Shown in pieces: positions 3,777 to 25,992 of a stretch of DNA of 60,119 bases (position 1 is its first letter; the number at the start of each line of letters is the position of its first letter). The DNA is taken from positions 1 to 60,119 of the forward strand of contig CAKZPS010000009.1 in assembly GCA_937139415.1 (NCBI GenBank), read 5' to 3'. The DNA is from an uncultured bacterium (GTDB taxonomy: Bacteria > Atribacterota > Atribacteria > Atribacterales > Caldatribacteriaceae). Below the pieces are notes generated by a model. It ran no database searches, had not been told where the DNA came from, and worked only from the letters and a program-made list of their open reading frames with translations. The position numbers and the translations under genes were made by a program.

Positions 3777-3784
3777 TGTGATTT

Positions 3785-5872: not shown

Positions 5873-5886
5873 GAGAGGAGAATGAT

Positions 5887-7287: not shown

Positions 7288-8148
7288 ATGTTTCGTTTCG
7301 GAGTGGACACGTTTATCTGGACGGAAAAGTTTTCGGAGAAAGATTTATGGATTATTCCCCGGGCAAAAGAATTGGGGTTTGAGGTCATCGATATTTTTAT
7401 TTCTCACCCGGAGACCTTTCCCACGGAGCTCGTGAAGGAAAAAATAAAAGAGGTTGGCATCGAGCCTGTGACGACGACCACCCTCAGTAAAGAGACCAAT
7501 CTTATTTCTCCCGATCCTACCATCCGCGCTAATGGGGTAGAAAGCCTAAAAAAAATTATAGACATCAATGTGGCCATTGGTTCCAGAATTTTGGGAGGCG
7601 TGAATTACGCTGCTTGGGGATATTTGAGTGGTAAACCGCGCACCGAAGAGGAATGGGAGTGGTCGGTGAGTGCTATGCGTGAAGTGGCTGCATATGCACA
7701 GGAAAAAGGAGAAGTAGTTATATCGGTAGAACCGGTGCAGCGTTTCGAAACCCATTTTCTTAATATTGCTGAGGATGCAGTGCGTTACTGTCAGGATGTC
7801 GGTTTTGATAACGTCAAGATTCATCTTGATTCTTTTCATATGATTCGTGAAGAGCGAAGTTTTCGCAAAGCGGTTGAAATTTGCGGTAAAAAATATCTCA
7901 GTTATGTTCATGTCTGTGAAAGTGATCGAGGAATACCGGGAACGGGATTAGTTCCTTGGAAGGAATTTTTTACCGCTCTAAAGGATATCGGATACAGCGG
8001 CCCCTTAGTGATTGAGTCTTTCGATCCCAGTTTTGAAGAACTCAATAGACTCTGTGCGATATGGCGAAAGTTTGCCGAATCCGGTGAGGCCCTGGCTGTG
8101 GAAGGGCTAAAGAATTTGAAGGCCATTGCTCAGGAGATAGGTGTTTAA
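7288..8148 (+). CDS. Ketose 3-epimerase-like TIM-barrel enzyme
   Basis: A 286-residue xylose-isomerase-like TIM barrel close to the D-tagatose/D-psicose 3-epimerase group. The expected metal and catalytic residues can be traced: Glu in SVEPVQRF (about residue 151), Asp in HLDSFHM (about 184), His in YVHVCESDRG (about 210) and Glu in VIESFDP (about 245). The family epimerises ketoses, or related ketose phosphates, at C3. It follows the first transporter with ribosome site AAAGGAGAG and is closed by a terminator at 8155. In the context of tetrose/pentose genes it could also act as an erythrulose-phosphate epimerase/isomerase; substrate is inferred. Confidence 0.75.
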   Translation: MFRFGVDTFIWTEKFSEKDLWIIPRAKELGFEVIDIFISHPETFPTELVKEKIKEVGIEPVTTTTLSKETNLISPDPTIRANGVESLKKIIDINVAIGSRILGGVNYAAWGYLSGKPRTEEEWEWSVSAMREVAAYAQEKGEVVISVEPVQRFETHFLNIAEDAVRYCQDVGFDNVKIHLDSFHMIREERSFRKAVEICGKKYLSYVHVCESDRGIPGTGLVPWKEFFTALKDIGYSGPLVIESFDPSFEELNRLCAIWRKFAESGEALAVEGLKNLKAIAQEIGV

Positions 8149-8337: not shown

Positions 8338-8344
8338 GTTAAAT

Positions 8345-8382
8345 GACAATTGTTATGATTTTTGTTAGACGACAATTGTTAT
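8345..8382 (+). promoter_or_regulatory. Putative SorC operator pair (autoregulation)
   Basis: The 12-mer GACAATTGTTAT occurs identically at 8345-8356 and 8371-8382, 26 bp apart, each with the palindromic core ACAATTGT. The same core lies at 165-172 in front of the first transporter operon. The second site ends a few bases before the start codon, so binding would block the promoter or the start region. Inference: autoregulation by the adjacent SorC-family protein. Confidence 0.65.
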
Positions 8383-8390
8383 AAAGGGGG

Positions 8391-9362
8391 ATGCGCTTGG
8401 AGGGACCGCTCAATAAAAGTCTGCTTGCCCAAATTGCTAAGCTCTACTATCTTGATGATTTGTCGATCATTGAGATTGCCAAGATTTTAGGAATGTCTCG
8501 CCAAAGGTGTTCAAGGTTACTCAAGAAAGCGAAGGAAGAGGGAATCGTTCAAATTGAGGTCATCGATCCGGCACAAGAAGGGGTCCTCAATTTAGAGAAA
8601 GAGTTCGAGAAGCGTTTTTCCCTGCGCAAGGTTCATGTGGTGAGTGTGTTTAGTAAGGACAGCGACCTCATTCGTAAAGCGGTAGGCGAGGCAGGAGCAC
8701 GATTTTTTTTGAAAGTCGTTGCCCCAGGCAATAAAGTTGGTATTGCTTATGGTCGGACTCTCTATGAATTTGTTCGCTACGTGAAACCCTCGTTTAGTGA
8801 AGGTAACCGGAATTTGAGCGTCGTGCAATTAATGGGGGGATTGAGTCGTATTTCGGCGAATGTCTTTGCTACTGAGATTCCAAAACGTTTGGCCGAAGCC
8901 TTAGAGGCACAAGTGTATTACCTTCCTGCACCTGCTTTCACCCGCGATCAGGTCACCCGAGATGCCATGCTGAAAGACGAAAATGTTCAGGCTACTTTGA
9001 GGGAGAAAATCGACATCGCTTTGGTGGGCATCGGGAGTGTTTCTCCCCATGCGATGTTGATTCAGACTGGTGCTATTACCCCGAGTGAATATGAAGAACT
9101 CCTTGCGAAAAAAGCGGTGGGTGACATTTGTGGAACCTTTTTCGACATCTCTGGAAATATCGTCGAGTTTAGTGGAAACGAAAGGAGAATTGCCGTCTCA
9201 TTAAGAGATCTACGGAAGAAGTGTCCCTTGGTGATCGGCATCGCAGGAGGGTTTGAGAAGGCCGAGGCTATTTTGGGAGCCTTGCGAGGAAGATTCCTCC
9301 ACGTTCTCGTGGTTGATAGTTTGACTGCAGAAGCAATTCTCAAGAAACTTGAGGAAAAGTGA
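8391..9362 (+). CDS. SorC/DeoR-type sugar-responsive transcription regulator
   Basis: A 323-residue SorC-family regulator. The N-terminal helix-turn-helix (SIIEIAKILGMSRQRCSRLL, about residues 25-44) binds DNA. The remaining 250 residues form the phosphosugar-binding domain, with family landmarks GIAYGRTLYEF and VQLMGG near residues 120-145 and a late GIAGG. The family senses phosphorylated sugars. It heads the second transporter/polyol gene run and has paired palindromes in its own promoter and in the first operon's promoter. ATG 8391 sits immediately after GGGGG, which is too close, so TTG 8397 may be the true start. Confidence 0.85.
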   Translation: MRLEGPLNKSLLAQIAKLYYLDDLSIIEIAKILGMSRQRCSRLLKKAKEEGIVQIEVIDPAQEGVLNLEKEFEKRFSLRKVHVVSVFSKDSDLIRKAVGEAGARFFLKVVAPGNKVGIAYGRTLYEFVRYVKPSFSEGNRNLSVVQLMGGLSRISANVFATEIPKRLAEALEAQVYYLPAPAFTRDQVTRDAMLKDENVQATLREKIDIALVGIGSVSPHAMLIQTGAITPSEYEELLAKKAVGDICGTFFDISGNIVEFSGNERRIAVSLRDLRKKCPLVIGIAGGFEKAEAILGALRGRFLHVLVVDSLTAEAILKKLEEK

Positions 9363-9484: not shown

Positions 9485-10882
9485 ATGAAAAAAGTAGCGT
9501 GGTTGATTAGTGTAGTGGGATTGGTGTTCTTATTTGCAGTAGCTTTTGCTCAAGAAGACCCCTTAGCCTATTATCAACAAGCGAAAATCAACTGGAAAGC
9601 GTTTGAAGGAACCCAGTTGACCATTGGATTGAATAAGCACCCCTTCACGGAGTCTCTGCGACCACTCCTATCCATTTTTGAGCAGTTAACCGGTATCAAG
9701 GTTGCATACGTCATTCTTCCTGAGGAAGAGTTCTTTGAGAAACTATTGATTGACCTCTCCAGTGGCGGCGGTATTTTCGATGTCTATATGACTTCTCCGA
9801 TGTTCGAATGGCGCTACCAATACGCCGGTTGGATTGAAGATCTCAATACCTATTGGAATAACCCTGAACTTACCGACCAAGCGTGGTACAACCGCGAAGA
9901 CTTTTATGAAAAACCACTCCGAGCAAACATGTGGGATGGAACCATTGCTGGGGGATTGGGTCAGGGGAGATGGAATGGTATTCCGGTCATGGTAGAGTTC
10001 TTCTGTCAAGCATACCGTAATGATTTGCGAGAGAAGTGGGGTCTTACCGTTCCAACAACGTATCCGGATCTTTTGGACACGTTGACGAAGGCTGCAGAGT
10101 TGGGCAAGCAAGAAAAACCCCAAGTCTACGGAGTGGCTAACCGAGGTATCAAGAGCTGGTCGACGGTGCACTCGGGGTATTTTACCGCCTTTAGCACCTA
10201 TGGGCAGAAAGATTTGAACCCCGATTTGACCGCGGCGATTAATACTCCCCAAGCGAAGGAAATTACCAAAATTTGGGTAGATATTCTACAAAAAGCTGGA
10301 CCTCCAGGTTGGCCGAACTATACTTGGTACGATGCAAAACAAAATTTCGCTGCAGGGAGATTCTATGAAATTACCGACTGTGATTTCTTCGCCGCAACTT
10401 ATGAGAATCCGGCACAATCAGTTGTGGCAGGTAAGACTGGATATGCTTTACCACCTGCTGCTCCTGACGGAAACATCACCTCTAACATGTGGACTTGGTC
10501 TTTGGGGATGAGCGCGCTGTCCAAGCATAAAGAAGCAGCTTGGCTATTCCTCATGTGGGCAACTGCTCCTCAAACCATGCTCGATGGTACTCTCAAGTAT
10601 GATAATTTCAATCCAACCAGAAAATCAGTCTGGGAAAATCCTGCGGTAGTAGAGAAAACCATGAAGTGGGGAACCAAACCTGGAGAATATCGAGAAATTG
10701 TAGATGCTATGTATGCAAAATATGGTGATATCCGCTGGACACCTAATCCCGATGTTACCGCACTTGGTGATATCTGGGCAGAAGCGCTTCACGAAGCATA
10801 TGAAGGTAAGAAACCGGTTGAGCAGGCCTTGGATGACGCAGCAGTAAAAATCAACGAACTTATGACTAAGTGGAAGAAATAG
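9485..10882 (+). CDS. ABC transporter binding protein, polyol/sugar type
   Basis: A 465-residue periplasmic binding protein of the family-1 (CUT1) class. The signal peptide ends at AVAFA/QED near residue 22 and has no lipobox. The mature part has the LTGIKV segment, many Trp/Tyr residues typical of polyol or sugar pockets, and the C-terminal PVEQALDDAAVKINELM helix. ATG 9485 has GGAGGG upstream. It is followed by a hairpin and the permease genes. Its arrangement with two ATPase genes recalls the rhizobial glycerol system GlpSTPQV, and the downstream tetritol-type enzymes suggest a polyol ligand (inference). Confidence 0.85.
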   Translation: MKKVAWLISVVGLVFLFAVAFAQEDPLAYYQQAKINWKAFEGTQLTIGLNKHPFTESLRPLLSIFEQLTGIKVAYVILPEEEFFEKLLIDLSSGGGIFDVYMTSPMFEWRYQYAGWIEDLNTYWNNPELTDQAWYNREDFYEKPLRANMWDGTIAGGLGQGRWNGIPVMVEFFCQAYRNDLREKWGLTVPTTYPDLLDTLTKAAELGKQEKPQVYGVANRGIKSWSTVHSGYFTAFSTYGQKDLNPDLTAAINTPQAKEITKIWVDILQKAGPPGWPNYTWYDAKQNFAAGRFYEITDCDFFAATYENPAQSVVAGKTGYALPPAAPDGNITSNMWTWSLGMSALSKHKEAAWLFLMWATAPQTMLDGTLKYDNFNPTRKSVWENPAVVEKTMKWGTKPGEYREIVDAMYAKYGDIRWTPNPDVTALGDIWAEALHEAYEGKKPVEQALDDAAVKINELMTKWKK

Positions 10883-10894
10883 GAATAAAGTAAT

Positions 10895-10924
10895 GGCTGC
10901 AAGAGAAACGTTCCTCTTGCAGCC
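10895..10924 (+). other. Intra-operon hairpin after the second binding protein
   Basis: GGCTGCAAGAG (10895-10905) pairs perfectly with CTCTTGCAGCC (10914-10924). No U-tract follows and the permease ribosome site comes directly after. The position equals that of the 1751-1788 hairpin in the first transporter, which supports a role in mRNA stability or differential expression. Confidence 0.65.
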
Positions 10925-10947
10925 AGGTGAAGGTGAGGTGACGAGGT

Positions 10948-11850
10948 TTGGCCAACGGTATGGAACTGCGCCGAAGTTTTTGGAGTAGAAACATCGCTTT
11001 ACTCCTTTTCTTGCCTGCTTTTCTTCTGACGGTAGGAATCTTGGTTCCTTTTGGATATTCGGTAGTCATGTCATTTACCAACTTTAATCTCACCACCGGT
11101 ACTTCTGATTTCATTGGAATTGGCAATTACCTAAAACTTACCAGAGATCCCGAATTCTGGAATTCCCTCAAGGTGACGCTCCTTTTTACGGTTGGAGCGG
11201 TCATTTTCGAGGTTGGAATTGGATTCATTGCTGCGTACTTGCTGAATCTGGGTCTTTTGGGGCAGAAGATATGGCGTACCCTGTTTTTATTGCCAGTCAT
11301 GCTTCCGCCCACGGTGGCGGCGATCATGTGGAAATTAATGATGGCCCCCATTCAAGGTGTATTTAATTATCTTTTGCAGCTGGTGGGGTTTGCGGGTTCG
11401 GAGTGGTTGGGAGGGTCGAGTACGGCACTCTTATCGGTGATTCTCATTGATGCTTATGTTTTTGTGCCTTTTGCCGGTATGATCTTTCTGGCTGGTGTGC
11501 AAAACTTGCCCAAGGAGCCTTACGAAGCTGCCGCAGTTGATGGAGTTTCAAATTGGTTTACTTTTCGGAAATTAACTATTCCTCTTCTCAAGCCGGTGAT
11601 TCTCATCGTTTTGCTCTTTCGCATCATGGACTGTCTCAAACATTTTGATATTATTTATGCAGCGACCAAGGGTGGTCCGGCCAGTGCTACCATGACTCTC
11701 TCGGTACAAGCGTATTACCATAGTTTTCGTTGGACAAATATGGGCTATGCTTTTGCGCATCTCGTGGTTTTGTGGGCGATCGTTTATGTACTGAGTTACT
11801 TCTTGGTAGGACAATGGAAGAAAGCAGTGAGTGAGGTTCATGGCGGTTAG
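10948..11850 (+). CDS. ABC sugar/polyol permease, MalF type
   Basis: A 300-residue inner-membrane permease with six predicted helices. The EAA loop near residue 190 (PYEAAAVDGVSNW, then KLTIPLL) contacts an ATPase. A KGGPASATMTL motif follows, as in other MalF-type permeases. TTG 10948 fits the ribosome site AGGTGAGGTG; ATG 10960 is a possible shorter start. It belongs to the second transporter operon and pairs with the permease at 11868. Confidence 0.85.
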   Translation: MANGMELRRSFWSRNIALLLFLPAFLLTVGILVPFGYSVVMSFTNFNLTTGTSDFIGIGNYLKLTRDPEFWNSLKVTLLFTVGAVIFEVGIGFIAAYLLNLGLLGQKIWRTLFLLPVMLPPTVAAIMWKLMMAPIQGVFNYLLQLVGFAGSEWLGGSSTALLSVILIDAYVFVPFAGMIFLAGVQNLPKEPYEAAAVDGVSNWFTFRKLTIPLLKPVILIVLLFRIMDCLKHFDIIYAATKGGPASATMTLSVQAYYHSFRWTNMGYAFAHLVVLWAIVYVLSYFLVGQWKKAVSEVHGG

Positions 11851-11867
11851 TTGAGGGGGTTAGTGTC

Positions 11868-12734
11868 ATGGAGAACAACAAGAAAATTTCGTCAACCAAG
11901 TTGATATCTACTGTTGGGTTGATTATCCTCATGTTGTGGACTGCTTTTCCTTTATATTGGGTATTGAACATGTCTATCCAGACCCCCTTGGATGTTATCT
12001 CCTATCCTCCAAAATTTGTTTTTGATGCGACCTTAGAGAATTATTCCGTGGTTCTTTTGGGTAGAGCATGGTTGGGAAAGTATGAAACGGTGCAAACTGA
12101 TTTTCCTCGGTATTTCTTGAACAGCCTCATCGTTTGTTTTGGAGCAGTGGGACTGAGCATGTTAGTTGGCGTGCCAGCAGCATATTCCTTGGCACGTTAC
12201 AACTTTAGAGGAAAAGAAAATTTCGCTTTCACTCTTTTGAGTTTTCGATTCGCCCCTGGATTAATTGTGATTTTGCCTCTCTTCGTCATTTTTAGGAGAA
12301 TAGGAATATATGGTACCTATCATGGGATGATGCTGGCTTATCAGCTCATCACCCTTCCTTTCGCAGTGTGGCTGATGAGAGGTTTTTTCGAAGATATTCC
12401 TATGGAATTAGAACATGCTGCGCGTATTGATGGATATTCTTGGTGGGGTATCTTTCGAAAGGTTGACCTACCCTTAGTCGCTCCAGGAATTGCGGCAACG
12501 GCGATTCTTTCCTTCATTTTTGCTTGGAATGAGTTTTTGTTCGGGTATATTCTTTCCTCCGATGTGACTCGACCGGTTACCCCTTCTCTCATGGGATTCA
12601 TCTCCTATGAGCAAGTGTTGTGGGGACAAATGGCTGCAGCAGCAATTGTTACCCTTTTGCCTTCCTTGGTGCTCGCTATTTTCATTCAAAGGTATCTCGT
12701 GCGAGGTCTGACTTTCGGTGCAGTGAAAGGATAG
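11868..12734 (+). CDS. ABC sugar/polyol permease, MalG type
   Basis: A 288-residue inner-membrane permease. Six hydrophobic segments are visible, the EAA loop (MELEHAARIDGYSWW, about residue 180) is present, and the end reads RYLVRGLTFGAVKG as expected for MalG-like proteins. It lies 17 bases after its MalF-type partner with GAGGGGG as ribosome site, and 14 bases before the ATPase pair. Confidence 0.85.
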   Translation: MENNKKISSTKLISTVGLIILMLWTAFPLYWVLNMSIQTPLDVISYPPKFVFDATLENYSVVLLGRAWLGKYETVQTDFPRYFLNSLIVCFGAVGLSMLVGVPAAYSLARYNFRGKENFAFTLLSFRFAPGLIVILPLFVIFRRIGIYGTYHGMMLAYQLITLPFAVWLMRGFFEDIPMELEHAARIDGYSWWGIFRKVDLPLVAPGIAATAILSFIFAWNEFLFGYILSSDVTRPVTPSLMGFISYEQVLWGQMAAAAIVTLLPSLVLAIFIQRYLVRGLTFGAVKG

Positions 12735-12748
12735 TAGGGGGAAGCGCT

Positions 12749-13873
12749 ATGGTGGAGTTAGAGTTACGCAAAGTGACTAAGAAGTATGGAGATGTGGTGG
12801 CGGTAAAAGACCTGTCTTTTAAAACCCGAAAAGGGGAAATGCTTGTTTTGCTTGGGCCTCCCGGTGCAGGAAAGAGCTCAACCTTGAAAATGATAGCAGG
12901 GATTGAAGAGGTAACCGCCGGAGAGATTGTAATGGATGGTCAAGTCATTAACCATATCGATCCTGCAGAGCGCGATGTGGCCATGGCGTTCGAAACCTAC
13001 GCTCTCTATCCTCATCTTTCAGTTTTTGAGAATATTGCCTTTCCCCTTCGTTCGCCCAAAAGAGCACATGTCTTTTCTGAAGAGGTGATCAAAAATAAGG
13101 TGGTAGAAGTAGCTCAGTTTTTAGAGATTGACATGCTTTTGGAACGGAAACCGAAAGAGTTGAGTGGTGGACAGCGCCAAAGGGTGAGTTTGGCCCGGTG
13201 TCTCGTACGGGAACCAAAAATGTTCCTCTTGGATGAGCCAATTGCTCATCTGGATGCGAAACTCCGTCACCGGTTAAGACGAGATTTGAAACGATGGCAA
13301 CGGGAGAGACAAACCACTACTGTATATACCACTACTGATTATCTTGAAGCGTTTTCGGTGGGGGATCGTATTGCCATTTTAAATAGGGGAATCTTGCAGC
13401 AGATTGGTACATGGGAAGAAATATATAACCAGCCGGCTGATACTTTCGTGGGGATGATCGTGAGCGATCCTCCTATGAATTATATGAATGCTCGAATAGT
13501 GCATGAGGGGGAAAGACTCTTTTTAGAAGCGAAAGGAGTACTTTTTCGGCTTTCTCTGCCGGTGCAGGAGAAGCTAAGGAGCATGAGAGAGGAAGAGGTC
13601 ATCGTGGGAGTTTTCCCGAGTAAGATTGCCCTTGTGGAAGAGCCATCCGTTGTTTCTTCGGGAACGGTTATTGATGGTGTAGTTAAGTTTGTGGAATTGC
13701 GGGGTTCGAGAAAGATTGCCTTTGTGTCCACGGGTCGTGACTTCAATTTTACTGTACAACTTGGAGTTGAAGAAAATGTAAGACCTGGGGATCAAATACG
13801 ATGCCTCTTTGGGGAGGAAGTTTTGCAAGTTTTTGATAAACAGTCAAGAAAGAATATTCTTTTCTTGAGTTAA
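12749..13873 (+). CDS. ABC transporter ATPase lacking the switch histidine
   Basis: A 374-residue MalK/UgpC-like ATPase. Walker A (GPPGAGKSS), a canonical signature (LSGGQRQR) and Walker B (FLLDEP) are present. The Q-loop has Glu instead of Gln (MAFETYALYP), and the H-loop normally reading VTHD is TTTD (about residue 195), so the catalytic switch histidine is missing. Its own ATP site should hydrolyse poorly, while its signature can serve the partner encoded next. ATG 12749 follows AGGGGGA; longer frames upstream merely overlap the permease gene. The C-terminal 130 residues form the regulatory OB-type domain. Confidence 0.87.
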   Translation: MVELELRKVTKKYGDVVAVKDLSFKTRKGEMLVLLGPPGAGKSSTLKMIAGIEEVTAGEIVMDGQVINHIDPAERDVAMAFETYALYPHLSVFENIAFPLRSPKRAHVFSEEVIKNKVVEVAQFLEIDMLLERKPKELSGGQRQRVSLARCLVREPKMFLLDEPIAHLDAKLRHRLRRDLKRWQRERQTTTVYTTTDYLEAFSVGDRIAILNRGILQQIGTWEEIYNQPADTFVGMIVSDPPMNYMNARIVHEGERLFLEAKGVLFRLSLPVQEKLRSMREEEVIVGVFPSKIALVEEPSVVSSGTVIDGVVKFVELRGSRKIAFVSTGRDFNFTVQLGVEENVRPGDQIRCLFGEEVLQVFDKQSRKNILFLS

Positions 13874-13885
13874 GGTGATGAAAAA

Positions 13886-15007
13886 ATGGCTGAAGTGAAG
13901 GTAGAACATGTTTGGAAGTTTTACCGAGAGGAAGCCGGAGCAGGCCAACGGGTAGAGGCGGTAAAGGACGCTACCTTTCATTGTAATGATCAAGAATTCT
14001 TATGTCTTTTGGGGCCTTCGGGTTGTGGTAAAACTTCGACTCTGCGAATGATTGCCGGTCTTGAACATATTTCTCGAGGGGATATTTACATCAATAATCG
14101 GAGAGTCAACAACCTTTTACCCAAAGATCGGATGCTTGCCATGTCTTTTGAGTCATATGCGTTGTATCCTCCGCTTTCGGTGTACGATAATATTGCTTTC
14201 CCTTTACGGGCACGCAAATATCCAGAGCAGAAGATTAAGGAAAAAATAGCACTTGTGGCTGATCTTTTGGAGATAGGGGATATCTTGCATTTTCGACCGG
14301 CCAAACTGAGTGGAGGCGAACAACAACGTGTTTCTCTGGCACGGGCTTTGGTGCGTGAAGACGCCCAAGTGACCCTTATGGATGAACCCATATCGCATCT
14401 TGATGCACAACTCAAGGCGAAACTGCGCATTGATTTAAAGAGAATACAGCGAGAGTGGGGCCTCACGGTCATCTATGTCACTCATGATCAGTTGGAAGCG
14501 CTCAGTATGGCCGATAAAGTGGTGGTTATGAATTTAGGCGAAATCCAACAAGTAGGCACTCCAGATGATCTCTATGAAAAACCGGCCAACCTCTTTGTAG
14601 CCGGTTTTATTGGTGAACCGCCTATGAACTTTCTCGAGTGTGTGATGGTGAAAGAGTTAGATCGAGTGTACCTTCAGTTTCATGATTTCGCTTTTCCACT
14701 CGATCCTCAAATATCACAAGCAATCGAGAGAGAAAATCAGAGTAACGGTAAATGGGTTATCGGTATTCGTCCTGGGGATATCGTCCTTGGAGTAGAGTTA
14801 AAAGGGGCGTATTCTATGAAGGGGACGATATACAGTGTAGAACCATTAGGAGAATCTTCGATTGTGACCGTGGATGTTCATGGACAGAGAGTGCTTGTCG
14901 AAGTAGCTGGAACCTGTGCGGAGGAAGAAGGGAGAGTGGTCTCCTTTTTCTTCCGTAAGGAAAAAACCCACATTTTTAATGCTTTGACCGGAAAGGCTAT
15001 TCAATAA
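13886..15007 (+). CDS. ABC transporter ATPase, catalytically complete partner
   Basis: A 373-residue MalK/UgpC-like ATPase. Walker A (GPSGCGKTS), signature (LSGGEQQR), Walker B (TLMDEP) and switch histidine (VTHDQ) are all present; only the Q-loop is altered to Glu (MSFESYALYP). Together with the 12749 product it would make one largely canonical and one degenerate composite site. The start has the ribosome site AAGGTGATG 7 to 12 bases upstream. It is followed 17 bases later by the dehydrogenase gene, linking transport and catabolism in one transcript. Confidence 0.88.
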   Translation: MAEVKVEHVWKFYREEAGAGQRVEAVKDATFHCNDQEFLCLLGPSGCGKTSTLRMIAGLEHISRGDIYINNRRVNNLLPKDRMLAMSFESYALYPPLSVYDNIAFPLRARKYPEQKIKEKIALVADLLEIGDILHFRPAKLSGGEQQRVSLARALVREDAQVTLMDEPISHLDAQLKAKLRIDLKRIQREWGLTVIYVTHDQLEALSMADKVVVMNLGEIQQVGTPDDLYEKPANLFVAGFIGEPPMNFLECVMVKELDRVYLQFHDFAFPLDPQISQAIERENQSNGKWVIGIRPGDIVLGVELKGAYSMKGTIYSVEPLGESSIVTVDVHGQRVLVEVAGTCAEEEGRVVSFFFRKEKTHIFNALTGKAIQ

Positions 15008-15024
15008 TAAAAGAGGTGAGCACG

Positions 15025-16125
15025 ATGTACGTGGAGGCAATTCCTAATCTTCCTCGAACTATGAAGGCGGTGGTAGCTTATAAACCGGGTGATTACCGTT
15101 TCGAGGAAGTGCCCATTCCAGAAATTGGGGATGAAGAAGTTTTATTAAAGGTAGGGGGATGTGGTATTTGTGCTGGTGATGTCAAAGGGTATCATGGAGC
15201 GCCATCTTTTTGGGGTGGTGAGGGTCAACCTGCTTGGATTCAAGCACCTTTCATTCCCGGGCATGAGTTTTACGGGCAGGTAGTGGCCTTAGGGAAAGGT
15301 GCCAAGGAAAAATATGGTCTTTCCTTAGGAGATTGGGCGGTCTCAGAGCAGATCATCCCTTGTGAAAAGTGCCGTTTCTGCCGAGAAGGAAAGTACTGGA
15401 TGTGTGAGGTGCATAATATCTACGGATTTCAACGGGAGGTGGCCGATGGAGCCTATGCTGAATACGTACGTCTCCCTAAAACTGCACGCAATTACAAGTT
15501 GCCGGAAGGGTTTCCCTTGGACGTTGCTCCTTATGTAGAGCCGTTGGCTTGTGCTATTCATGCGGTGGAGCGGGGAGACATCCAGTTCAACGATGTCGTG
15601 GTAATTGCAGGATTGGGTTCTCTGGGATTAGGAATGGTGCAGGCGGCGAGACTCAAGAATCCGAAACTCCTCATTGCCATCGATGTGCGTGACAAGCGCA
15701 ATCTCTTAGCCAAAGAGTATGGTGCAGATTTAGTCATGAATCCCTTGAAAGAAGATGTGGTGGGCCAGGTGAAGTCCCTCACCGGCGGATATGGCTGTGA
15801 TGTATACATTCAAGCGAGCGGTCACCCCTCGGGAGCCATACAGGGATTACAGATGATCCGCAAATTAGGGAGGTTTGTCGAGTTTAGCGTGTATAACGAT
15901 CCGGTGACGGTGGACTGGAGTATTATCGGGGATCGCAAGGAATTAGATTTGCGCGGCGCCCACTTGAGTCCCTATACTTATGAAACCACCATTCGTTTCC
16001 TGCATGACGGTCGGATCAAGGCTGATAAGATTATCACTCATCGCATGCCTCTTGCCGAATTTGAGAAGGGATTCGAGATGGTAGAGAGAGGAGAGGAATC
16101 GATTAAGGTGGTACTCATTCCTTGA
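15025..16125 (+). CDS. eltD: Zinc-dependent polyol dehydrogenase, erythritol/L-threitol dehydrogenase type
   Basis: A 366-residue medium-chain zinc alcohol dehydrogenase. Catalytic zinc ligands lie in GGCGICAGD and PGHEF; the structural zinc site is the four-Cys run CEKCRFCREGKYWMC. A Rossmann motif (GLGSLGLG) binds NAD(P). Segments such as HGAPSFWGGEGQP, DIYGFQ-like NIYGFQ and VDWSIIGDRKELD match my memory of mycobacterial erythritol/L-threitol dehydrogenase (EltD), which oxidises tetritols to erythrulose. ATG 15025 has AGAGGTGAG upstream. RpiB and DhaKL follow immediately, as expected for erythrulose phosphorylation and isomerisation. The exact polyol remains inferred. Confidence 0.75.
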   Translation: MYVEAIPNLPRTMKAVVAYKPGDYRFEEVPIPEIGDEEVLLKVGGCGICAGDVKGYHGAPSFWGGEGQPAWIQAPFIPGHEFYGQVVALGKGAKEKYGLSLGDWAVSEQIIPCEKCRFCREGKYWMCEVHNIYGFQREVADGAYAEYVRLPKTARNYKLPEGFPLDVAPYVEPLACAIHAVERGDIQFNDVVVIAGLGSLGLGMVQAARLKNPKLLIAIDVRDKRNLLAKEYGADLVMNPLKEDVVGQVKSLTGGYGCDVYIQASGHPSGAIQGLQMIRKLGRFVEFSVYNDPVTVDWSIIGDRKELDLRGAHLSPYTYETTIRFLHDGRIKADKIITHRMPLAEFEKGFEMVERGEESIKVVLIP

Positions 16126-16152
16126 AAAAAGTGTCTATAGGAGCGTGATAAC

Positions 16153-16611
16153 ATGTACTTGGCCGTTGCTTCCGACCATTTCGGATATCCTCTCAAAAGG
16201 GTTATCGTAGAGTACCTGCGGGAGAAGAAGGTTGAATTTGAAGATTTAGGGGTTTCTTCGGAGGAAGAAGTAGTAGATTATCCGGATGTTGCCCTCAAGG
16301 TATCTTTGGGAATTCGCGAGGGAAAGTATCAATACGGCATCCTCATTTGTGGAACGGGGATTGGGATGGCTCTTGCTGCCAATAAGGTTCCGGGAATTTA
16401 TGCTGCCTGTGCCCATGATATTTATTCTGCCGAGCGGGCAAAAAAGAGCAACAACTCCAACGTTCTCACTCTGGGTCGCCACATTGTGGGACCAGAATTA
16501 GCCAAAATGCTCGTCGATGCTTGGTTGTCAAGTGATTTTCAAGGTGGACGATCCTTGCCTAAAGTGGAAAAAATACGCGAGATCGAGAAAAAATTTATGA
16601 AGGAGGCTTGA
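16153..16611 (+). CDS. rpiB: RpiB-family sugar-phosphate isomerase
   Basis: A 152-residue RpiB/LacAB-type isomerase. Visible hallmarks are the N-terminal SDHFGYPLK, the active-site loop ICGTGIGMA with the catalytic cysteine (about residue 66), and NVLTLGRH near residue 100. RpiB interconverts ribose-5-P and ribulose-5-P; close relatives (EryI, DerI) convert D-erythrulose-4-P to D-erythrose-4-P in tetritol pathways. Its position between an EltD-like dehydrogenase and DhaKL makes the tetrulose role likely here, though a housekeeping role cannot be excluded. Confidence 0.88.
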   Translation: MYLAVASDHFGYPLKRVIVEYLREKKVEFEDLGVSSEEEVVDYPDVALKVSLGIREGKYQYGILICGTGIGMALAANKVPGIYAACAHDIYSAERAKKSNNSNVLTLGRHIVGPELAKMLVDAWLSSDFQGGRSLPKVEKIREIEKKFMKEA

Positions 16612-16613
16612 GC

Positions 16614-17612
16614 ATGAAGAAATTTATTAACCGCCCCGAAAACGTAGTTGAAGAGATGCTGGAGGGGTTTGTGATTGCCAATGCCGGGAAATTACGTCGA
16701 CTCCCTACGGAAAGGGTTTTAGTGCGTAAAGACGCTCCGGTGAAAGGGAAAGTTGGCATCGTTACTGGAGGTGGTTCGGGGCACAAACCGGCTTTTATAG
16801 GGTACATTGGGAAGGGGTTAGTTGATGCCGTAGCAGTGGGAGATATTTTTGCTGCCCCTCCGGTACAGAGAGTTTATGAAGCGATCAAGGCAGTTGATGG
16901 AGGGAAAGGGGTATTGCTCTGTTTAGGAAATTACTCGGGAGACGTCATGAATTTTGGCATGGCGCAAGAGTTAGCCCAGGCTGAAGGAATACCTGTTGAA
17001 AGTGTTATCGTGAACGATGACGTCGCTTCGAGTCCCAAAGATCGGATGGATAATCGCCGCGGCGTGGCCGGAGAGGTCATCCTGTGGAAGGTGGTCGGAG
17101 CGCTGGCGGAAGAGGGAGCTGATTTAGCGAAGATGAAAGAAGTAGGGACCCGGGCAGTTTTTAACACCCGTAGCCTCGGTGTGGCCCATACCCCCTGCAT
17201 CATGCCCTCCTCAGGGAAGCCCAGCTTTGAAATCGGTGACAATGAAATGGAGATCGGTGTCGGTCACCATGGTGAACCGGGGATCAAGCGTATGTCCATG
17301 ATGAGCGCCGATGAGGTTACCGAACTCATCACCTTGCAGGTTATCGAGGACCTACCTTTTCAATCCGGTGACGAGGTAACGGTGCTCATCAACGGACTCG
17401 GTTCTACCTCTCTTCTGGAAATGTATATTTGTTTCCGCAAGGTGGCGCAGATTCTCGCTGACCATTCGATTAAGATTTATCGGACCTATATCGGAGAATT
17501 TTTCACTTCCATGGAAATGGGTGGATTCTCGGTAACCCTCACCAAAATGGACGATGAACTCAAGAGACTCATGGATGCACCATGTGATGGAGTGCATTTT
17601 ATCCAGCATTGA
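16614..17612 (+). CDS. dhaK: Dihydroxyacetone/erythrulose kinase subunit DhaK
   Basis: A 332-residue substrate-binding subunit. The GGGSGHKP motif (about residues 50-57), GNYSGDVMNF with the active-site Asp (about 108) and VGHHGEPG, containing the histidine that binds the ketose covalently as a hemiaminal, are present. It acts with DhaL (next gene). No PTS protein DhaM lies nearby, so the pair is probably ATP-dependent or depends on a distant DhaM. DhaK relatives (LerK, DerK) phosphorylate erythrulose in tetritol pathways. ATG 16614 has AGGAGG 7 bases upstream. Confidence 0.85.
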   Translation: MKKFINRPENVVEEMLEGFVIANAGKLRRLPTERVLVRKDAPVKGKVGIVTGGGSGHKPAFIGYIGKGLVDAVAVGDIFAAPPVQRVYEAIKAVDGGKGVLLCLGNYSGDVMNFGMAQELAQAEGIPVESVIVNDDVASSPKDRMDNRRGVAGEVILWKVVGALAEEGADLAKMKEVGTRAVFNTRSLGVAHTPCIMPSSGKPSFEIGDNEMEIGVGHHGEPGIKRMSMMSADEVTELITLQVIEDLPFQSGDEVTVLINGLGSTSLLEMYICFRKVAQILADHSIKIYRTYIGEFFTSMEMGGFSVTLTKMDDELKRLMDAPCDGVHFIQH

Positions 17613-17627
17613 GGGAGGGAAATCATC

Positions 17628-18287
17628 GTGGCTATTCCCTTTGAAAGAGTGAGACTCGCATTTTCTCAGATTTTGGAAGCGTTGGAAAAAAATCGTCAGT
17701 ATCTCAACGACTTGGATGCTCCTATTGGTGACTCTGACCATGGGGAGAGTGTCACCAATGCTTTTCGCAAGGTAAAGGAAGCTATTGATAAACTCCCCCC
17801 TGAAGAGAGAGACATCGGGAAACTCCTCCAGGAAGCGGGAAAGTCCATCATTTTCTCCGGTGGCGCGGCTATGGGTCCCCTCTACGGAACGGCCTTCATG
17901 GATGCCGGCAAGGTGGTGAGTGGGAAGACGGAGCTCACCAGAGAAGATCTGGTGGCTTTGTGGGAAGCCTTTGCCGGAGGGATCGCCCGTCGAGGGCAGG
18001 CGAAGGTGGGGGAAAAAACCATGTATGACACCATTTACCCTATGGTAGAGGCGTTAAAAAAATCCCTTGCCGAAGGGAAAGACTTGTCGATCATGATTGA
18101 GGAGGCTATCGAAGCAGCTCGCCGAGGGATGGAATCCACAAAAGACATGCTCTCTTTGCGTGGTCGCTCGAGCCGCTTAGGAGAACGGAGTATTGGACAT
18201 ATCGATCCCGGCGCGGCCTCGAGTTTTATCGTGGTACGGTCCTTTATGGAAACTTTACTGGAGAAAGGGGGAGGAGTTCGTGAATGA
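17628..18287 (+). CDS. dhaL: Dihydroxyacetone/erythrulose kinase subunit DhaL
   Basis: A 219-residue nucleotide-binding subunit of the Dha kinase family. The Mg-ADP aspartates are in LDAPIGDSDHGES (about residues 28-40). GGAAMGPLYGT (about 79) and GRSSRLGERSIGHIDPGA (about 180) match DhaL landmarks. The start is GTG 17628 after GGGAGGG. It forms the kinase with DhaK, phosphorylating a C3/C4 ketose in the cytoplasm. Its 3' end overlaps the next gene's GTG start by 8 bases. Confidence 0.88.
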   Translation: MAIPFERVRLAFSQILEALEKNRQYLNDLDAPIGDSDHGESVTNAFRKVKEAIDKLPPEERDIGKLLQEAGKSIIFSGGAAMGPLYGTAFMDAGKVVSGKTELTREDLVALWEAFAGGIARRGQAKVGEKTMYDTIYPMVEALKKSLAEGKDLSIMIEEAIEAARRGMESTKDMLSLRGRSSRLGERSIGHIDPGAASSFIVVRSFMETLLEKGGGVRE

Positions 18288-19044
18288 AGTTGACCTTTCC
18301 TGCAATTTGCGAGAAAAGGTGGCATTGATTACCGGTGCAGCGCGAGGCATTGGGAAGGCGATCGCCTTCCTCTTTGCCCAAAATGGTGCACATACTTCTT
18401 TGGTGGATCTCGATCCCGAAGTGGAGAAACTCGTTCCTGAGGTAACGCAATGGGGCACGCAGAGTGTCACCGTTATAGGAGATGTGACCAAAAAGGAAGA
18501 TGTGGAGCGGATGGTAGGGGAGACGCTCAAAGCCTTCGGAACGATTGATATCTTGGTGAACAACGCCGGAGTTGCTTACCTTGATGAGGCAGAAAATCTC
18601 TCTGAGGAATATTGGGATAAAACTATGGCGGTCAACCTGAAAGGACCCTTTCTCCTCTCCCAAGCGGTAGGGAAAGTGATGATCCAAAAGAAGCGGGGAA
18701 AGATTATCAATATCTCTTCTCAAGCCGGCATTATTGCCTTAGACCGCCATGTTGCCTATTGTACCAGTAAAGCTGGGCTCATCGGTATGACCAAAGTGTT
18801 GGCCTTAGAGTGGGCGGAATTTGGCATCCAGGTCAATGCCATTGCTCCCACGGTCATCCTTACCGAGTTGGGAAAAAAAGCCTGGGCGGGAGAAGTAGGT
18901 GAAGCCATGAAGCAAAAAATTCCTCTGCGTCGTTTTGGATACCCAGAAGAAGTAGCTGCAGCGGCTCTCTACTTGGCAAGTAGTGCCTCGGACCTTGTGA
19001 CCGGAACGATTTTGGTCATCGATGGGGGATATACCATCCAATAG
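18280..19044 (+). CDS. Short-chain dehydrogenase, polyol/sugar type
   Basis: A 254-residue classical SDR. The cofactor motif TGAARGIG, the NNAG motif and the catalytic Ser with YCTSK are in order, and the C-terminus ends with the common GGYTIQ. GTG 18280 has GGGGGAGGAG upstream and overlaps dhaL by 8 bases, so it is coupled to the kinase. Likely an NAD(P)-dependent sugar alcohol or ketose oxidoreductase in the same pathway; substrate unknown. Confidence 0.82.
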   Translation: MNEVDLSCNLREKVALITGAARGIGKAIAFLFAQNGAHTSLVDLDPEVEKLVPEVTQWGTQSVTVIGDVTKKEDVERMVGETLKAFGTIDILVNNAGVAYLDEAENLSEEYWDKTMAVNLKGPFLLSQAVGKVMIQKKRGKIINISSQAGIIALDRHVAYCTSKAGLIGMTKVLALEWAEFGIQVNAIAPTVILTELGKKAWAGEVGEAMKQKIPLRRFGYPEEVAAAALYLASSASDLVTGTILVIDGGYTIQ

Positions 19045-19202: not shown

Positions 19203-19955
19203 ATGCGCTTGAAGGACAAGGTTGCCATTGTTACCGGGGCGGCGAAGGGTATCGGCCGGGCCATTGCCGAGGGTTTTGCGCGGGAAGGAGCTAAAGTGGT
19301 GGTCAATGACCTTTTGGAAGAGGCGTGCACGAGGGTAGCGCATGAGTTACAGGAAAAGTATAGCGTGCCGGTCATTCCGGTGGCAGGAGATGTGAGTTTG
19401 CGGGCCACTGCAGTGAAGATTAAGGAGGAGACCCTGAAAGCATTTGGAACGGTGGATATTTTGGTCAATAACGCGGGGATCATGATTTCGGGGCTCGTCT
19501 TGGATTATAGAGAAGAGGATTGGGATAAAATTTTCGCGGTGAATGCGAAGAGTGTTTTTCTCATGTGTCAAGAAATTGGGAGAATCATGGTCGAAAAACG
19601 TTATGGGAAGATCATCAACGTAGCTTCCATTGGGGCAAAAGACGGTGCGGTAGCCCAAGCAGCCTATGCTGCAACCAAGGCTGCAGTGATGAACTTTTCT
19701 CGTGCCCTCTCCAAAGAATTCGCTCCTTATAACGTGAATGTGAATGCCATTTGTCCAGGAGTGGTCGATACCGAACTAGGGCAAGTGAATCTGGCTGATC
19801 CGGAAAAGCGAAAAAAATTCATCGCCATGACTCCCAAGGGGAGAATTAGTGTCCCTGAGGATTTAGTAGGGATTTCCATTTTCTTAGCGAGTGACGAGTC
19901 CGATTTCATCGTCGGACAGGCGATCAATATCGATGGTGGGATACTCTATTACTAA
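19203..19955 (+). CDS. Short-chain dehydrogenase, pentitol/sugar type
   Basis: A 250-residue classical SDR with TGAAKGIG, NNAG, catalytic Ser and YAATK motifs and a C-terminal INIDGG. The ATG at 19203 follows GGGGG. It is transcribed with the FGGY kinase (16 bases downstream) and AraD, so oxidation of a pentitol to a ketopentose is the likely role. Its substrate cannot be read from sequence. Confidence 0.82.
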   Translation: MRLKDKVAIVTGAAKGIGRAIAEGFAREGAKVVVNDLLEEACTRVAHELQEKYSVPVIPVAGDVSLRATAVKIKEETLKAFGTVDILVNNAGIMISGLVLDYREEDWDKIFAVNAKSVFLMCQEIGRIMVEKRYGKIINVASIGAKDGAVAQAAYAATKAAVMNFSRALSKEFAPYNVNVNAICPGVVDTELGQVNLADPEKRKKFIAMTPKGRISVPEDLVGISIFLASDESDFIVGQAINIDGGILYY

Positions 19956-19970: not shown

Positions 19971-21482
19971 TTGTCGGACTCCTATCTCCTGGGCGTTGAC
20001 CTTGGAACTTCGTCGCTAAAGGCTACTCTGCTCCCCCTTCGTGGTGAGGGTATAATTACCCATTCGGTAGAACTGAGTGTGTCATACCCGGATTCGTATT
20101 CCGCAGAGCAGCATCCTTACGAGTGGTGGGATACTTTTGTTTGCCTTTTGAAGGGTATTAGAGAGAAAATCGGCGATTTAAGAAAGATTGAGGCGATTGG
20201 TCTCTCCGGGCAGATGTTGGGGTTGGTGCTCCTCGATGAAAAGGGAGAACCGGTACGACCGGCAATTATTTGGTGTGACCAGCGGAGTTTCGCCGAGGTA
20301 GAATACCTGAAAGAAACCTTAGGCATGGAGAAATTGCTCGAATACACTGCTAATACTCCTCTCACCGGGTACTGGCTTCCCAAAATTTTGTGGTTGAGAA
20401 AGCATGAACCGGAAGTGCTGACCAAGACCAAGAAATTTCTCCTCCCCAAGGATTATCTCCGTTTGCGCCTTACCGGAAATTACGTGACCGAAGTTTCTGA
20501 TGCTTCGGGGACATTGATCTTTGATGTCAAGAAGAGACGTTGGTCACCAGAGATTATCTCCTCTTTTGCTTTACCGCAAGAGCTCTTTCCGGAAGTGGTC
20601 GAATCCCCGCAGATTACCGGGTACGTGAGTGAGAGCGTTTCTTTCGAGACAGGCTTAAGAGAGGGGATTCCGGTAGTTGGTGGTGGAGGAGATCAATCGA
20701 GTGGTGGGATCGGACTCGGGGTAGTAAAAAAGGGGGTTATTTCTTGCGTTTTGGGAACCTCAGGGGTGGTTATGGCCATGACCGAGGTTCCGCAAATTGA
20801 CTCTCAGAATCGAGGGCTCCATTCCTTCTGTTACTCTATTCCTCACACTTGGTTCCTCATGGGATGTACCTTGGCGGCAGGGGGATCGTATCAATGGCTC
20901 TTTCGCACCCTGCAAGTCCTCCGAACCGATTTGCGGTATGAAGAGCTCAACGATTTAGCAGAACAGGTCGAAGCGGGGAGTCAGGGCGTACTCTTTTTGC
21001 CGTATCTCATTGGTGAACGGACTCCTCATTCCGATCCCCAGGCGCGGGGAGTGTTTTGGGGAATGAGTTATCAGCACGATGTGCGTCATCTTATTCGGGC
21101 GACCATCGAGGGAGTAGCCTTCAGTCAAAGGGAATCGGTGGAAATTCTCCGGGAATTCGGTTTAACCGGAGATCGCGTGGTGGTCTCTGGGGGTGCAGCA
21201 CGGAGTCATCTCTGGTGTCAGATTCTTGCCGATGTTATTGGATTACCCATGGTGACCACCAACGTTGAAGATCCAGCTTCTCTGGGTGCCGGTATTATCG
21301 CCGGAGTAGGAACGGAGTATTTTACCTCGTTTCCGGAAGGGTGCGCACGGTACATTCGGCAAAGGGAAACCTTTGTCCCGGTGGAAGAGAGGAGGACTCT
21401 GTATGATGAGCTCTTCGGAGAATATCGTCGGCTCTATCAGGAGCTCAAGGAATTTAATCATCGGTTTCCACTTTTTCGCTAA
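19971..21482 (+). CDS. xylB: FGGY-family sugar kinase, xylulokinase-like
   Basis: A 503-residue FGGY carbohydrate kinase. The ATPase-fold landmarks LGVDLGTSSLKA (N-term), GLSGQM, WCDQR and GGGGDQSSGGIG (about 240) are present, with the C-terminal FGGY-type VVSGGAARSHLW motif near residue 403. It phosphorylates a ketopentose such as D-xylulose or L-ribulose. The start is TTG 19971 after GGAGGAA. AraD follows with overlapping stop and start region, suggesting L-ribulose or a related ketose as substrate; I keep the xylulokinase name only as nearest family. Confidence 0.8.
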   Translation: MSDSYLLGVDLGTSSLKATLLPLRGEGIITHSVELSVSYPDSYSAEQHPYEWWDTFVCLLKGIREKIGDLRKIEAIGLSGQMLGLVLLDEKGEPVRPAIIWCDQRSFAEVEYLKETLGMEKLLEYTANTPLTGYWLPKILWLRKHEPEVLTKTKKFLLPKDYLRLRLTGNYVTEVSDASGTLIFDVKKRRWSPEIISSFALPQELFPEVVESPQITGYVSESVSFETGLREGIPVVGGGGDQSSGGIGLGVVKKGVISCVLGTSGVVMAMTEVPQIDSQNRGLHSFCYSIPHTWFLMGCTLAAGGSYQWLFRTLQVLRTDLRYEELNDLAEQVEAGSQGVLFLPYLIGERTPHSDPQARGVFWGMSYQHDVRHLIRATIEGVAFSQRESVEILREFGLTGDRVVVSGGAARSHLWCQILADVIGLPMVTTNVEDPASLGAGIIAGVGTEYFTSFPEGCARYIRQRETFVPVEERRTLYDELFGEYRRLYQELKEFNHRFPLFR

Positions 21483-21499
21483 TGGTTGAGGTGAGAGAG

Positions 21500-22192
21500 A
21501 TGCTTGAAACGTTGAAGGAGAAAGTTCTTGAAGCAAACTTAGAGTTACAAAGGAAGGGTTTGGTCCTCTATACCTGGGGGAATGCGAGCGAAATCGTGCG
21601 GGAAGAGGGATTGGTGGTCATCAAACCCAGTGGAGTTCCCTACGAAGAGTTAACTCCCGAGTCCATGGTGGTGGTCGATTTGGAGGGGAGAGTAGTCGAG
21701 GGAACCTTGAGGCCCTCGGTAGATACAAAGATCCATCTCGATCTGTATCGTGCGTTTCCCGAGATTGGGGGCGTCGCCCACACCCATTCGACCTACGCTT
21801 GTGCCTGGGCACAAGCCAAAAAAGATATCCCTTGTCTTGGGGGAACTCATGCCGATTACTTCTTCGGTCCTATTCCTTGTACTCGTCCTTTGACCGAAGA
21901 AGAGGTGGAACGATCCTTCGAAGGAGATACGGGAAAAGTAATTGCCGAGAGGTTTATCCACCTGAAACCTCTCCAAGTCCCGGGAGTTTTGGTCGCTTCA
22001 CATGGGCCGTTTACCTGGGGGAAAGATTGCATGGAGGCCGTTTTCCATAGCGTGGTTTTGGAAGAAATTGCGCGGATGGCCTTTTTGACCCTCAATATCG
22101 ATGCCTTAACCGAGCCCATGGGAGCAAAGCTCTTAGAGAAGCGCTATTTCCGTAAACATGGGAAAAACGCCCACTACGGACAAAAGGGCTGA
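21500..22192 (+). CDS. araD: L-ribulose-5-phosphate 4-epimerase (class II aldolase family)
   Basis: A 230-residue AraD-type enzyme converting L-ribulose-5-P to D-xylulose-5-P. Zinc ligands are the two His in HTHSTYA (about residue 95) and a later His in ASHGPFTWG (about 170). The block GGTHADYFFGPIPCTR is diagnostic of AraD rather than fuculose aldolase. ATG 21500 fits the family N-terminus and has GAGGTGAG upstream; ATG 21482, overlapping the kinase stop, is the alternative. With the kinase and dehydrogenase it completes entry into the pentose phosphate pathway. Confidence 0.87.
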   Translation: MLETLKEKVLEANLELQRKGLVLYTWGNASEIVREEGLVVIKPSGVPYEELTPESMVVVDLEGRVVEGTLRPSVDTKIHLDLYRAFPEIGGVAHTHSTYACAWAQAKKDIPCLGGTHADYFFGPIPCTRPLTEEEVERSFEGDTGKVIAERFIHLKPLQVPGVLVASHGPFTWGKDCMEAVFHSVVLEEIARMAFLTLNIDALTEPMGAKLLEKRYFRKHGKNAHYGQKG

Positions 22193-22252: not shown

Positions 22253-23062
22253 GTGAAGGGATTGGAATATCGAGAGATATATGGAGCAAAAATCCCGGTG
22301 ATCGGTCTTGGAACTTGGGATTTGCGAGGCAAGGCGGGAGAAAAAGCAGTTCGTAGCGCCTTAGAAATTGGTTACCGCCACATTGATACTGCCGAATTTT
22401 ACGATAACGAAGAATACGTGGGACGGGCCATCCAGGAATCGGGAATTCCACGAGAGGAAATATTCTTGGTCACCAAGGTGTGGTACACCCATCTCCGTCA
22501 TGGAGAGGTTCGCCGAGCCTGTGAAGCTTCGCTCAACAAATTGAGGACCGATTACGTGGATCTCTATCTCATTCACTGGCCTAACCAAGAAGTGCCGCTC
22601 CAAGAGACCATCCAGGCGATGGAAGAGTTACAGAAGGAAGGGAAGATTCGTTTTATAGGAGTGAGTAATTTTGAGGTACCTCTACTCGAAGAAGCTCGTC
22701 GCCTTGCTACTTTACCTATTGTGACCGATCAGGTAGAGTATCATCCCTATCTTTCCCAAAAAGAGCTCGTGGACTACTGCAAGAAGCACCAAGTGGTACT
22801 CACCGCTTATTCTCCCTTGGCTCGAGGGCGGTTCAGACACGACCAGGTGCTCTTTCGGATTGGAGCGAAATACGGGAAATCACCCAATCAAGTTGCCCTA
22901 CGTTGGCTCATTCAACAGGACATGGTGGTGGCAATCCCCAAAGCACAGAGTGTGCAACATCAGAGAGAAAATCTCGACATTTTCGATTTCACCTTGACCC
23001 CAGAGGAAATGGAAGAAATCGGTCGCCTCGATCGGGGCGAGAAAGTTGCTTCACGGTTATAG
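22253..23062 (+). CDS. Aldo/keto reductase (AKR family)
   Basis: A 269-residue AKR TIM barrel. The catalytic tetrad is visible: Asp in HIDTAEFY, Tyr in the same segment, Lys in VTKVW, and His in LIHWPN. The C-terminal IPKAQSVQHQREN binds NADP(H). It reduces sugars or aldehydes, or in reverse oxidises polyols. GTG 22253 follows GGGGG; TTG 22262 is possible. It ends the polyol gene run and is 1 base from the phosphatase start. Confidence 0.85.
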   Translation: MKGLEYREIYGAKIPVIGLGTWDLRGKAGEKAVRSALEIGYRHIDTAEFYDNEEYVGRAIQESGIPREEIFLVTKVWYTHLRHGEVRRACEASLNKLRTDYVDLYLIHWPNQEVPLQETIQAMEELQKEGKIRFIGVSNFEVPLLEEARRLATLPIVTDQVEYHPYLSQKELVDYCKKHQVVLTAYSPLARGRFRHDQVLFRIGAKYGKSPNQVALRWLIQQDMVVAIPKAQSVQHQRENLDIFDFTLTPEEMEEIGRLDRGEKVASRL

Positions 23063-23063
23063 A

Positions 23064-25954: not shown

Positions 25955-25992
25955 GCATGTCACCCCTTTTTCGTTTTTTGTACAAATGATAA

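Follow-up and report, generated by a model that had tools for sequence, protein, structure and literature searches.

We believe that a run of genes in a stretch of Atribacterota DNA is a catabolic operon for the tetritols erythritol and D-threitol in a heat-loving anaerobe, and we put the probability of this reading at roughly 0.7. The stretch (the window) is the whole 60,119 nucleotides analysed of contig CAKZPS010000009.1 (assembly GCA_937139415.1). The core of the operon encodes a zinc-dependent medium-chain dehydrogenase/reductase (MDR) resembling EltD, an RpiB-family isomerase, and the DhaK and DhaL subunits of a predicted erythrulose kinase, followed by a GolD/DthD-family short-chain dehydrogenase/reductase (SDR). 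What we say below on the identity of the genes, the structure of the operon, clade membership, conserved neighbourhoods, the DhaK triad and the absence of HPr and of a second triose-phosphate isomerase gene was read directly from sequence comparisons.

The predicted pathway

In the pathway that we propose, the ABC transporter encoded upstream would import erythritol and/or D-threitol. The EltD-like MDR would oxidise erythritol to D-erythrulose, and the DthD-like SDR would make the same ketose from D-threitol. DhaK and DhaL would then convert D-erythrulose to D-erythrulose 4-phosphate with ATP, from which the dedicated RpiB would produce D-erythrose 4-phosphate (E4P) for entry into the non-oxidative pentose phosphate pathway via transketolase and a transaldolase/FSA-family enzyme; xylulose 5-phosphate, the co-substrate of transketolase, could come from the XylB module. 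Substrates, stereochemistry, phosphate donor and regulation are predictions throughout. Targeted searches of the genome assembly (2.32 Mb, 96% complete), from which all statements on genome gene content derive, found a full-length transketolase and a transaldolase/FSA-family gene.

The isomerase LerI of known tetritol pathways belongs to the triose-phosphate isomerase (TIM) family. DthD reportedly makes D-erythrulose from D-threitol, a finding attributed to Huang et al. 2015. EltD and LerK convert erythritol to D-erythrulose 4-phosphate and L-threitol to L-erythrulose 1-phosphate; LerI and DerI jointly carry L-erythrulose 1-phosphate to E4P, and the isomerase that acts on D-erythrulose 4-phosphate is DerI (PMC10733421). 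Since the EltD and DthD activities meet at D-erythrulose, E4P would be reachable through DhaKL and RpiB without LerI. An earlier note on this DNA had predicted degradation of erythritol or threitol to E4P. Erythritol and D-threitol stand as predicted substrates; L-threitol is less likely, because its product alone needs LerI, which was not found, and the genome shows a single TIM gene.

The cassette and its dehydrogenases

The genes for the MDR (15016..16125; GTG start, ATG at 15025), RpiB (16153..16611), DhaK (16608..17612; TTG start, ATG at 16614) and DhaL (17628..18287; LDxxIGDxDHG motif intact) lie on the + strand in that order. Gene calls and Pfam matches (ADH_N/ADH_zinc_N, LacAB_rpiB, Dak1 and Dak2, respectively; E 1e-18 to 1e-123) bear out the places and adjacency given in the earlier note. 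MDR and RpiB are 27 bp apart, RpiB and DhaK overlap by 4 bp, DhaK and DhaL are separated by 15 bp, and DhaL overlaps the SDR gene (~18280..19044, + strand); this spacing is operonic. The same-direction run extends from the ABC transporter (9485-15007) to AraD (21482-22192). The four-gene cassette of the earlier note was thus right in its genes and their order and incomplete in extent, having omitted the DthD-family SDR, a second SDR, XylB and AraD.

The MDR carries the structural-zinc motif CEKCRFCREGKYWMC. Against plasmid records its identities fell from 53.5% to ~35% with nothing between, and the best plasmid match is annotated as erythritol/L-threitol dehydrogenase. Only 4 of 397 actinobacterial-phylum genomes held a strong match (49-52%); DhaK lay near the MDR in 3 of the 4, and RpiB as well in 2 of those. 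The MDR tree, whose rows do not include the EltD of Mycobacterium smegmatis, contained a 40-row clade with 99% support (SH-like approximate likelihood-ratio test, SH-aLRT) and a 34-row subclade (98% SH-aLRT) made up of the window MDR, that of the actinobacterial locus L175 and other MDRs linked to DhaK/RpiB. Searching with the MDR alone retrieved DhaK loci, most of them with RpiB and a transketolase or transaldolase (Klebsiella, Salmonella and Halomonas plasmids; 3/4 actinobacterial loci). We looked for clustering with unrelated alcohol dehydrogenases and did not see it, and the clade holds the annotated erythritol/L-threitol dehydrogenase, in keeping with the description of the enzyme as EltD-like.

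The strongest curated assignment in the operon is that of the SDR, which is predicted to act on D-threitol: it passed NF005309, a family that spans both GolD and DthD, with 363.8 bits (cut-off 286). Among named relatives outside the phylum, the nearest come from the Listeria gol locus (57.6%) and from a Salmonella plasmid cassette that also has MDR, DhaK, DhaL, RpiB and transaldolase.

A dedicated RpiB paralogue

Four RpiB-family genes are present in the genome. The cassette copy, with a predicted DerI role, scored over the generic cut-offs (TIGR00689, 161.8 vs 88.3; NF004051, 176.6 vs 135). Of the others, a housekeeping copy lies beside prfA/prmC-type genes, one lies near deoC and an aldehyde dehydrogenase gene, and one beside a GH4-type gene. 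In a tree that lacks broad housekeeping sampling and shows only separation from this genome's own paralogues, the cassette RpiB joined the DhaK-linked copies from the order (99% SH-aLRT) and stood apart from the other three. On this comparison it is a dedicated paralogue. At L003 (G000:C74) an RpiB adjoins deoC and an aldehyde-dehydrogenase-like gene, an arrangement that recalls sugar-phosphate microcompartment loci reportedly present in Atribacteria.

A kinase that differs from dihydroxyacetone kinases

The window DhaK, the only one in the genome, keeps the equivalents of the E. coli catalytic His56, Asp109 and His218. At the positions corresponding to E. coli 60/104/217, which adjoin the catalytic residues of dihydroxyacetone (DHA) kinases, it has Phe/Gly/His (F63, G107 and H220 in the numbering of the window DhaK), whereas the DHA kinases of E. 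coli, L. lactis and C. freundii, all with solved structures, have His/Lys/Ile. Phe/Gly/His was found in all 31 DhaKs with an MDR within 6.5 kb, a frequency biased by the choice of the compared loci for likeness to the window DhaK; this choice does not affect how the signature differs from that of known DHA kinases. Phe/Gly/Ile occurred in the Listeria gol DhaK2 and in the actinobacterial fused kinase. The only other His/Lys/Ile in the set belonged to two Atribacterota paralogues (L050, L051), which clustered with E. coli DhaK and lack a neighbouring RpiB. With Gly in place of Lys104 beside the catalytic Asp, we infer, the site could accommodate a fourth carbon. In the DhaK tree, MDR partners were spread over several separate lineages.

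DhaK and DhaL are homologous to the DHA kinases of the phosphotransferase system (PTS), and DhaK fell just under the cut-off of the PTS-type model TIGR02363 (400.8 vs 406.25 bits). No HPr was found by the targeted genome searches, and no DhaM was recognised in the operon. Since the genome lacks HPr, DhaKL should not be PTS-driven and presumably uses ATP. We dropped the type of DhaL as a guide to which phosphate donor is used, since the protein most resembles PTS-type DhaL, yet lies in a cell without HPr.

Conservation of the gene neighbourhood

Among named genomes, the closest DhaK loci all came from Candidatus Atribacteria or Caldatribacterium, and the genome belongs with Candidatus Caldatribacterium relatives. 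Within Atribacterota, RpiB-DhaK-DhaL forms a constant core. It is joined to the window-type ABC transporter and MDR in two genomes (G023, G024) and to DthD, another ABC transporter, the second SDR and XylB in five (G022, G019, G001, G002, G005). The window combines the transporter/MDR set with DthD, the second SDR and XylB, and in G017 both sets are present, with both transporters. Such swapping of MDR and DthD before a constant core is expected if both yield the same ketose. In L047 (G007), an MDR match over only one third of the length lies at ~10704 between RpiB and SorC, which suggests a decayed copy.

We also compared 43 DhaK loci from named genomes of other phyla, each with at least 6 kb on either side. 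RpiB lay within 6 kb in 39/43 and an MDR of the clade in 17/43; transketolase, transaldolase/FSA or GlpX was present in 16/17 loci with the MDR vs 3/26 without it. Paenibacillus popilliae and P. dendritiformis (L119, L122) have the window order MDR-RpiB-DhaK-DhaL behind the same transporter, plus GlpX and transketolase, and a Clostridia metagenome-assembled genome (MAG; L099) has this order except that a kinase-like gene separates DhaK from DhaL. The order of the cassette is kept well beyond chance. The actinobacterial L175 reads MDR-SBP-permease-permease-ATPase-ATPase-fused DhaK/DhaL-RpiB (SBP, solute-binding protein), the layout expected of an EltD-type operon. Hidden behind generic names, the same cassette is found in many other bacterial phyla.

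On enterobacterial plasmids the MDR was seen in Klebsiella pCAV1042-183 (L145), Salmonella pSA20021456.1 (L053) and E. coli CP063469 (H117), at least two of which are typed as conjugative. In L145 and L053 it is accompanied by an MFS transporter, DhaK, DhaL, RpiB, transaldolase and a SorC-type regulator, and in L145 by transketolase as well; both are candidate mobile tetritol cassettes. Halanaerobium polyolivorans has no ery genes and yet can grow on meso-erythritol (PMC10536098). We dropped it as a physiological test, as it has three DhaKs, its related DhaK (61%, Phe/Gly/His) stands alone and it has no MDR of the EltD clade; it neither supports nor refutes the prediction.

Relation to known systems

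We take the operon to be a probable member of a known family of tetritol pathways, from a phylum new to that family, with an apparently PTS-free kinase of two subunits and with two dehydrogenases. The M. smegmatis pathways (Huang et al. 2015, doi 10.1021/jacs.5b08968, as described in PMC10733421 and PMC12780249) use EltD, DthD, DerK/LerK, LerI and DerI, the same enzyme families in the roles predicted for the window cassette, and the actinobacterial L175 shares with the window the SBP-permease-permease-ATPase-ATPase unit, the MDR, the DhaK-DhaL kinase and RpiB. In contrast to M. smegmatis, the window has a kinase split into DhaK and DhaL, no TIM-type LerI that we could find, and two dehydrogenases with a xylulokinase module in one operon, in an anaerobe of another phylum.

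The gol locus of Listeria monocytogenes NCTC7974 (L052; NZ_LR134402.1, 3799-11449) comprises dhaM2, dhaK2, dhaL2, a TIM-like gene, rpiB, golD, fsa and tkt. Its DthD/GolD SDR is 58% and its RpiB 52% identical to those of the window, and its DhaK and DhaL are likewise separate; it differs in having DhaM (PTS) and a second, TIM-like isomerase, and in lacking the MDR. The locus is said to be a glycerol pathway. With TIM-like and RpiB isomerases, a Phe/Gly DhaK2, FSA and transketolase, it reads like a tetritol pathway, and the glycerol description appears doubtful. The rhizobial/Brucella ery operon (L058) similarly leads to E4P through an RpiB-type D-erythrulose-4-phosphate isomerase, but begins with an FGGY-type kinase and a dehydrogenase resembling glycerol-3-phosphate dehydrogenase, has no DhaK or MDR, and also contains a TIM homologue and a sugar phosphate isomerase/epimerase. 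E. coli DhaKLM shares homologous DhaK and DhaL with the conserved catalytic residues, but it is PTS-dependent with DhaM, has no RpiB neighbour, and has H60/K104/I217 where the window has F/G/H.

Alternative explanations

Several points weigh against a tetritol operon. The cassette RpiB, at 158.3 bits, is under the cut-off of 240 of the sole DerI model that it hit, a rhizobial one; the same model also rejects RpiB from the actinobacterial EltD-type locus (150) and accepts that of the Sinorhizobium ery operon (259.9). The proposed link between MDR and EltD comes from an annotated name and the EltD-type actinobacterial locus, the M. smegmatis references not being part of the comparison. Many of the 43 loci are from related Bacillaceae, so that their counts overstate independence, and the neighbouring transketolase, transaldolase and GlpX genes would fit a pentose phosphate product too. 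Such a product is what a pentitol pathway would give: the dehydrogenases would convert ribitol or D-arabinitol to D-ribulose, DhaKL would be a ribulokinase with D-ribulose 5-phosphate as its product, RpiB would turn this into ribose 5-phosphate in its textbook reaction, and XylB and AraD would take the sister pentuloses. The generic rpiB scores of the isomerase agree with this, as does the presence of XylB, AraD and the second SDR in the same operon. We nevertheless consider it unlikely, because a housekeeping RpiB is already present in the genome, the MDR groups with an annotated tetritol dehydrogenase, and the minimal Bacillaceae/Enterobacteriaceae cassette (MDR-transporter-RpiB-DhaK-DhaL) mostly lacks an adjoining XylB or AraD; we also know of no DhaK-family ribulokinase.

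The homology of DhaK and DhaL to PTS DHA kinases would instead agree with glycerol as the substrate, which would be oxidised to DHA and phosphorylated by DhaKL to DHA phosphate; RpiB would take no part in this and would serve the pentose phosphate pathway, as has been proposed for Listeria gol. The SDR finds its nearest named relative in Listeria gol, and GolD is reportedly a glycerol dehydrogenase, which also counts against tetritols. This explanation is improbable given that the genome has no HPr, that an RpiB adjacency found in 39/43 loci has no role in glycerol use, that the DhaK triad is unlike that of the three DHA kinases, and that RpiB is missing near those other Atribacterota DhaKs in which the DHA-kinase triad is present. 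Finally, DhaKL might act on another short or branched ketose, such as L-erythrulose taken up directly or D-apulose from apiose, with the dehydrogenases serving side substrates. Bacteroidales and other phyla do have RpiB-DhaK-DhaL with no MDR, and in Lachnospiraceae-type genomes and spirochaetes a homologue of ketose 3-epimerase accompanies this trio. The two polyol dehydrogenases of the operon, however, point to an alditol, the apiose kinase of E. coli is an FGGY enzyme adjoined by split transketolase genes, and neither a split transketolase nor an apiose isomerase was recognised in the operon, which leaves this possibility very unlikely; D-apiose itself was dropped as a substrate, the E. coli apiose kinase having 25% identity to the operon XylB. 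The tetritol interpretation, already advanced in the earlier note, is favoured by the MDR clade, the dedicated RpiB paralogue and the DhaK active-site differences from DHA kinases.

Other features of the operon and its flanks

The transporter consists of an SBP with predicted tetritol (polyol) binding (9485..10882; SBP_bac_1), permeases at 10948..11850 and 11868..12734, and two ATPases at 12749..13873 (ATPase 1, UgpC/MalK type) and 13886..15007 (ATPase 2), all on the + strand. The SBP's best solved relative is the sorbitol-binding protein 4rya (2.6e-21), so calling the transporter polyol-type was fair. SBP relatives hold the same position in L119, L122 and L099, as do relatives of the two permeases (39-40% and 42-49%, respectively) in these loci and L175, and the two-ATPase arrangement is kept across loci. 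Downstream of the DthD-family SDR lie, on the + strand, the second SDR (19203..19955), a predicted pentitol/polyol dehydrogenase that adjoins XylB in 8 related Atribacterota loci; the xylulokinase XylB (19971..21482; TIGR01312, 521 bits vs cut-off 380), which would supply xylulose 5-phosphate; and an AraD-like L-ribulose-5-phosphate 4-epimerase (21482..22192; NF006047, 338 bits vs cut-off 257). Directly 3' of the operon is a convergent, alkaline-phosphatase-like pair (23046-24320, +; 24374-25963, -).

A SorC/DeoR-type sugar-binding transcriptional regulator (8391..9362, + strand; Pfam Sugar-bind, 6.2e-66) precedes the transporter, and a SorC-type regulator adjoins DhaK cassettes in several other loci too. 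Directly 5' of it (8343..8382, no strand assigned) are two copies of ACAATTGTTAT, 26 bp apart. Motifs of this type have 7 matches in the window vs 1.5 expected, and one is also found 5' of SorC in the closest relative, G017 (L032); we regard these sites as a candidate, purely predicted, SorC operator. A similar site at 164-175 lies 5' of a second ABC transporter unit (324-7011), which possibly belongs to the same regulon. One gene of that unit (2691-3776, 361 aa) has neither a Pfam match nor a relative in the compared loci.

Upstream of the regulator, and separated from it by a strong hairpin (8155-8183, z -4.2), is a ketose 3-epimerase-like gene (7288..8148, + strand; PF01261, D-psicose 3-epimerase-like), a possible partner of the cassette. 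Its 64-67% relatives stand beside DhaK or one gene away in L070, L074, L105, L106, L113 and L117; relatives near DhaK occur in spirochaetes, Halanaerobiaceae and Lachnospiraceae-type genomes, in several loci with an identity above that of DhaK. The enzyme could interconvert L- and D-erythrulose in place of LerI, or serve a pentulose branch. EryC was dropped as a namesake, with just 22% identity over 161 residues. In L105, L106 (7352-8554), L113 and L117, a 401-aa protein without Pfam or NCBIfam match adjoins the 3-epimerase-RpiB-DhaK-DhaL cluster. A Halanaerobiaceae MAG (L074) has SorC, 3-epimerase, DhaK, a ribose-type ABC transporter, a DeoC/LacD-type aldolase, a TIM-like gene, RpiB and DhaL in one cluster, which looks like a complete tetrulose-phosphate set.

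With the odds somewhat against it, we tentatively suggest a wider interpretation: that F60/G104 in DhaK marks a large multi-phylum erythrulose (C4) kinase family now annotated as dihydroxyacetone kinases (window, Bacillaceae, Enterobacteriaceae plasmid cassettes, Listeria gol), and that here the 3-epimerase replaces the missing LerI by interconverting L- and D-erythrulose before phosphorylation.

Significance

If the operon is as we predict, dedicated tetritol catabolism, known from aerobes like Mycobacterium and Brucella, would be extended to the strictly anaerobic Atribacterota. Enzymes that now carry the names ribose-5-phosphate isomerase and dihydroxyacetone kinase could then be assigned specific substrates, and a short active-site signature would become available for re-reading many database entries. 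It would also provide a testable case for the Listeria gol and enterobacterial plasmid loci as tetritol pathways.

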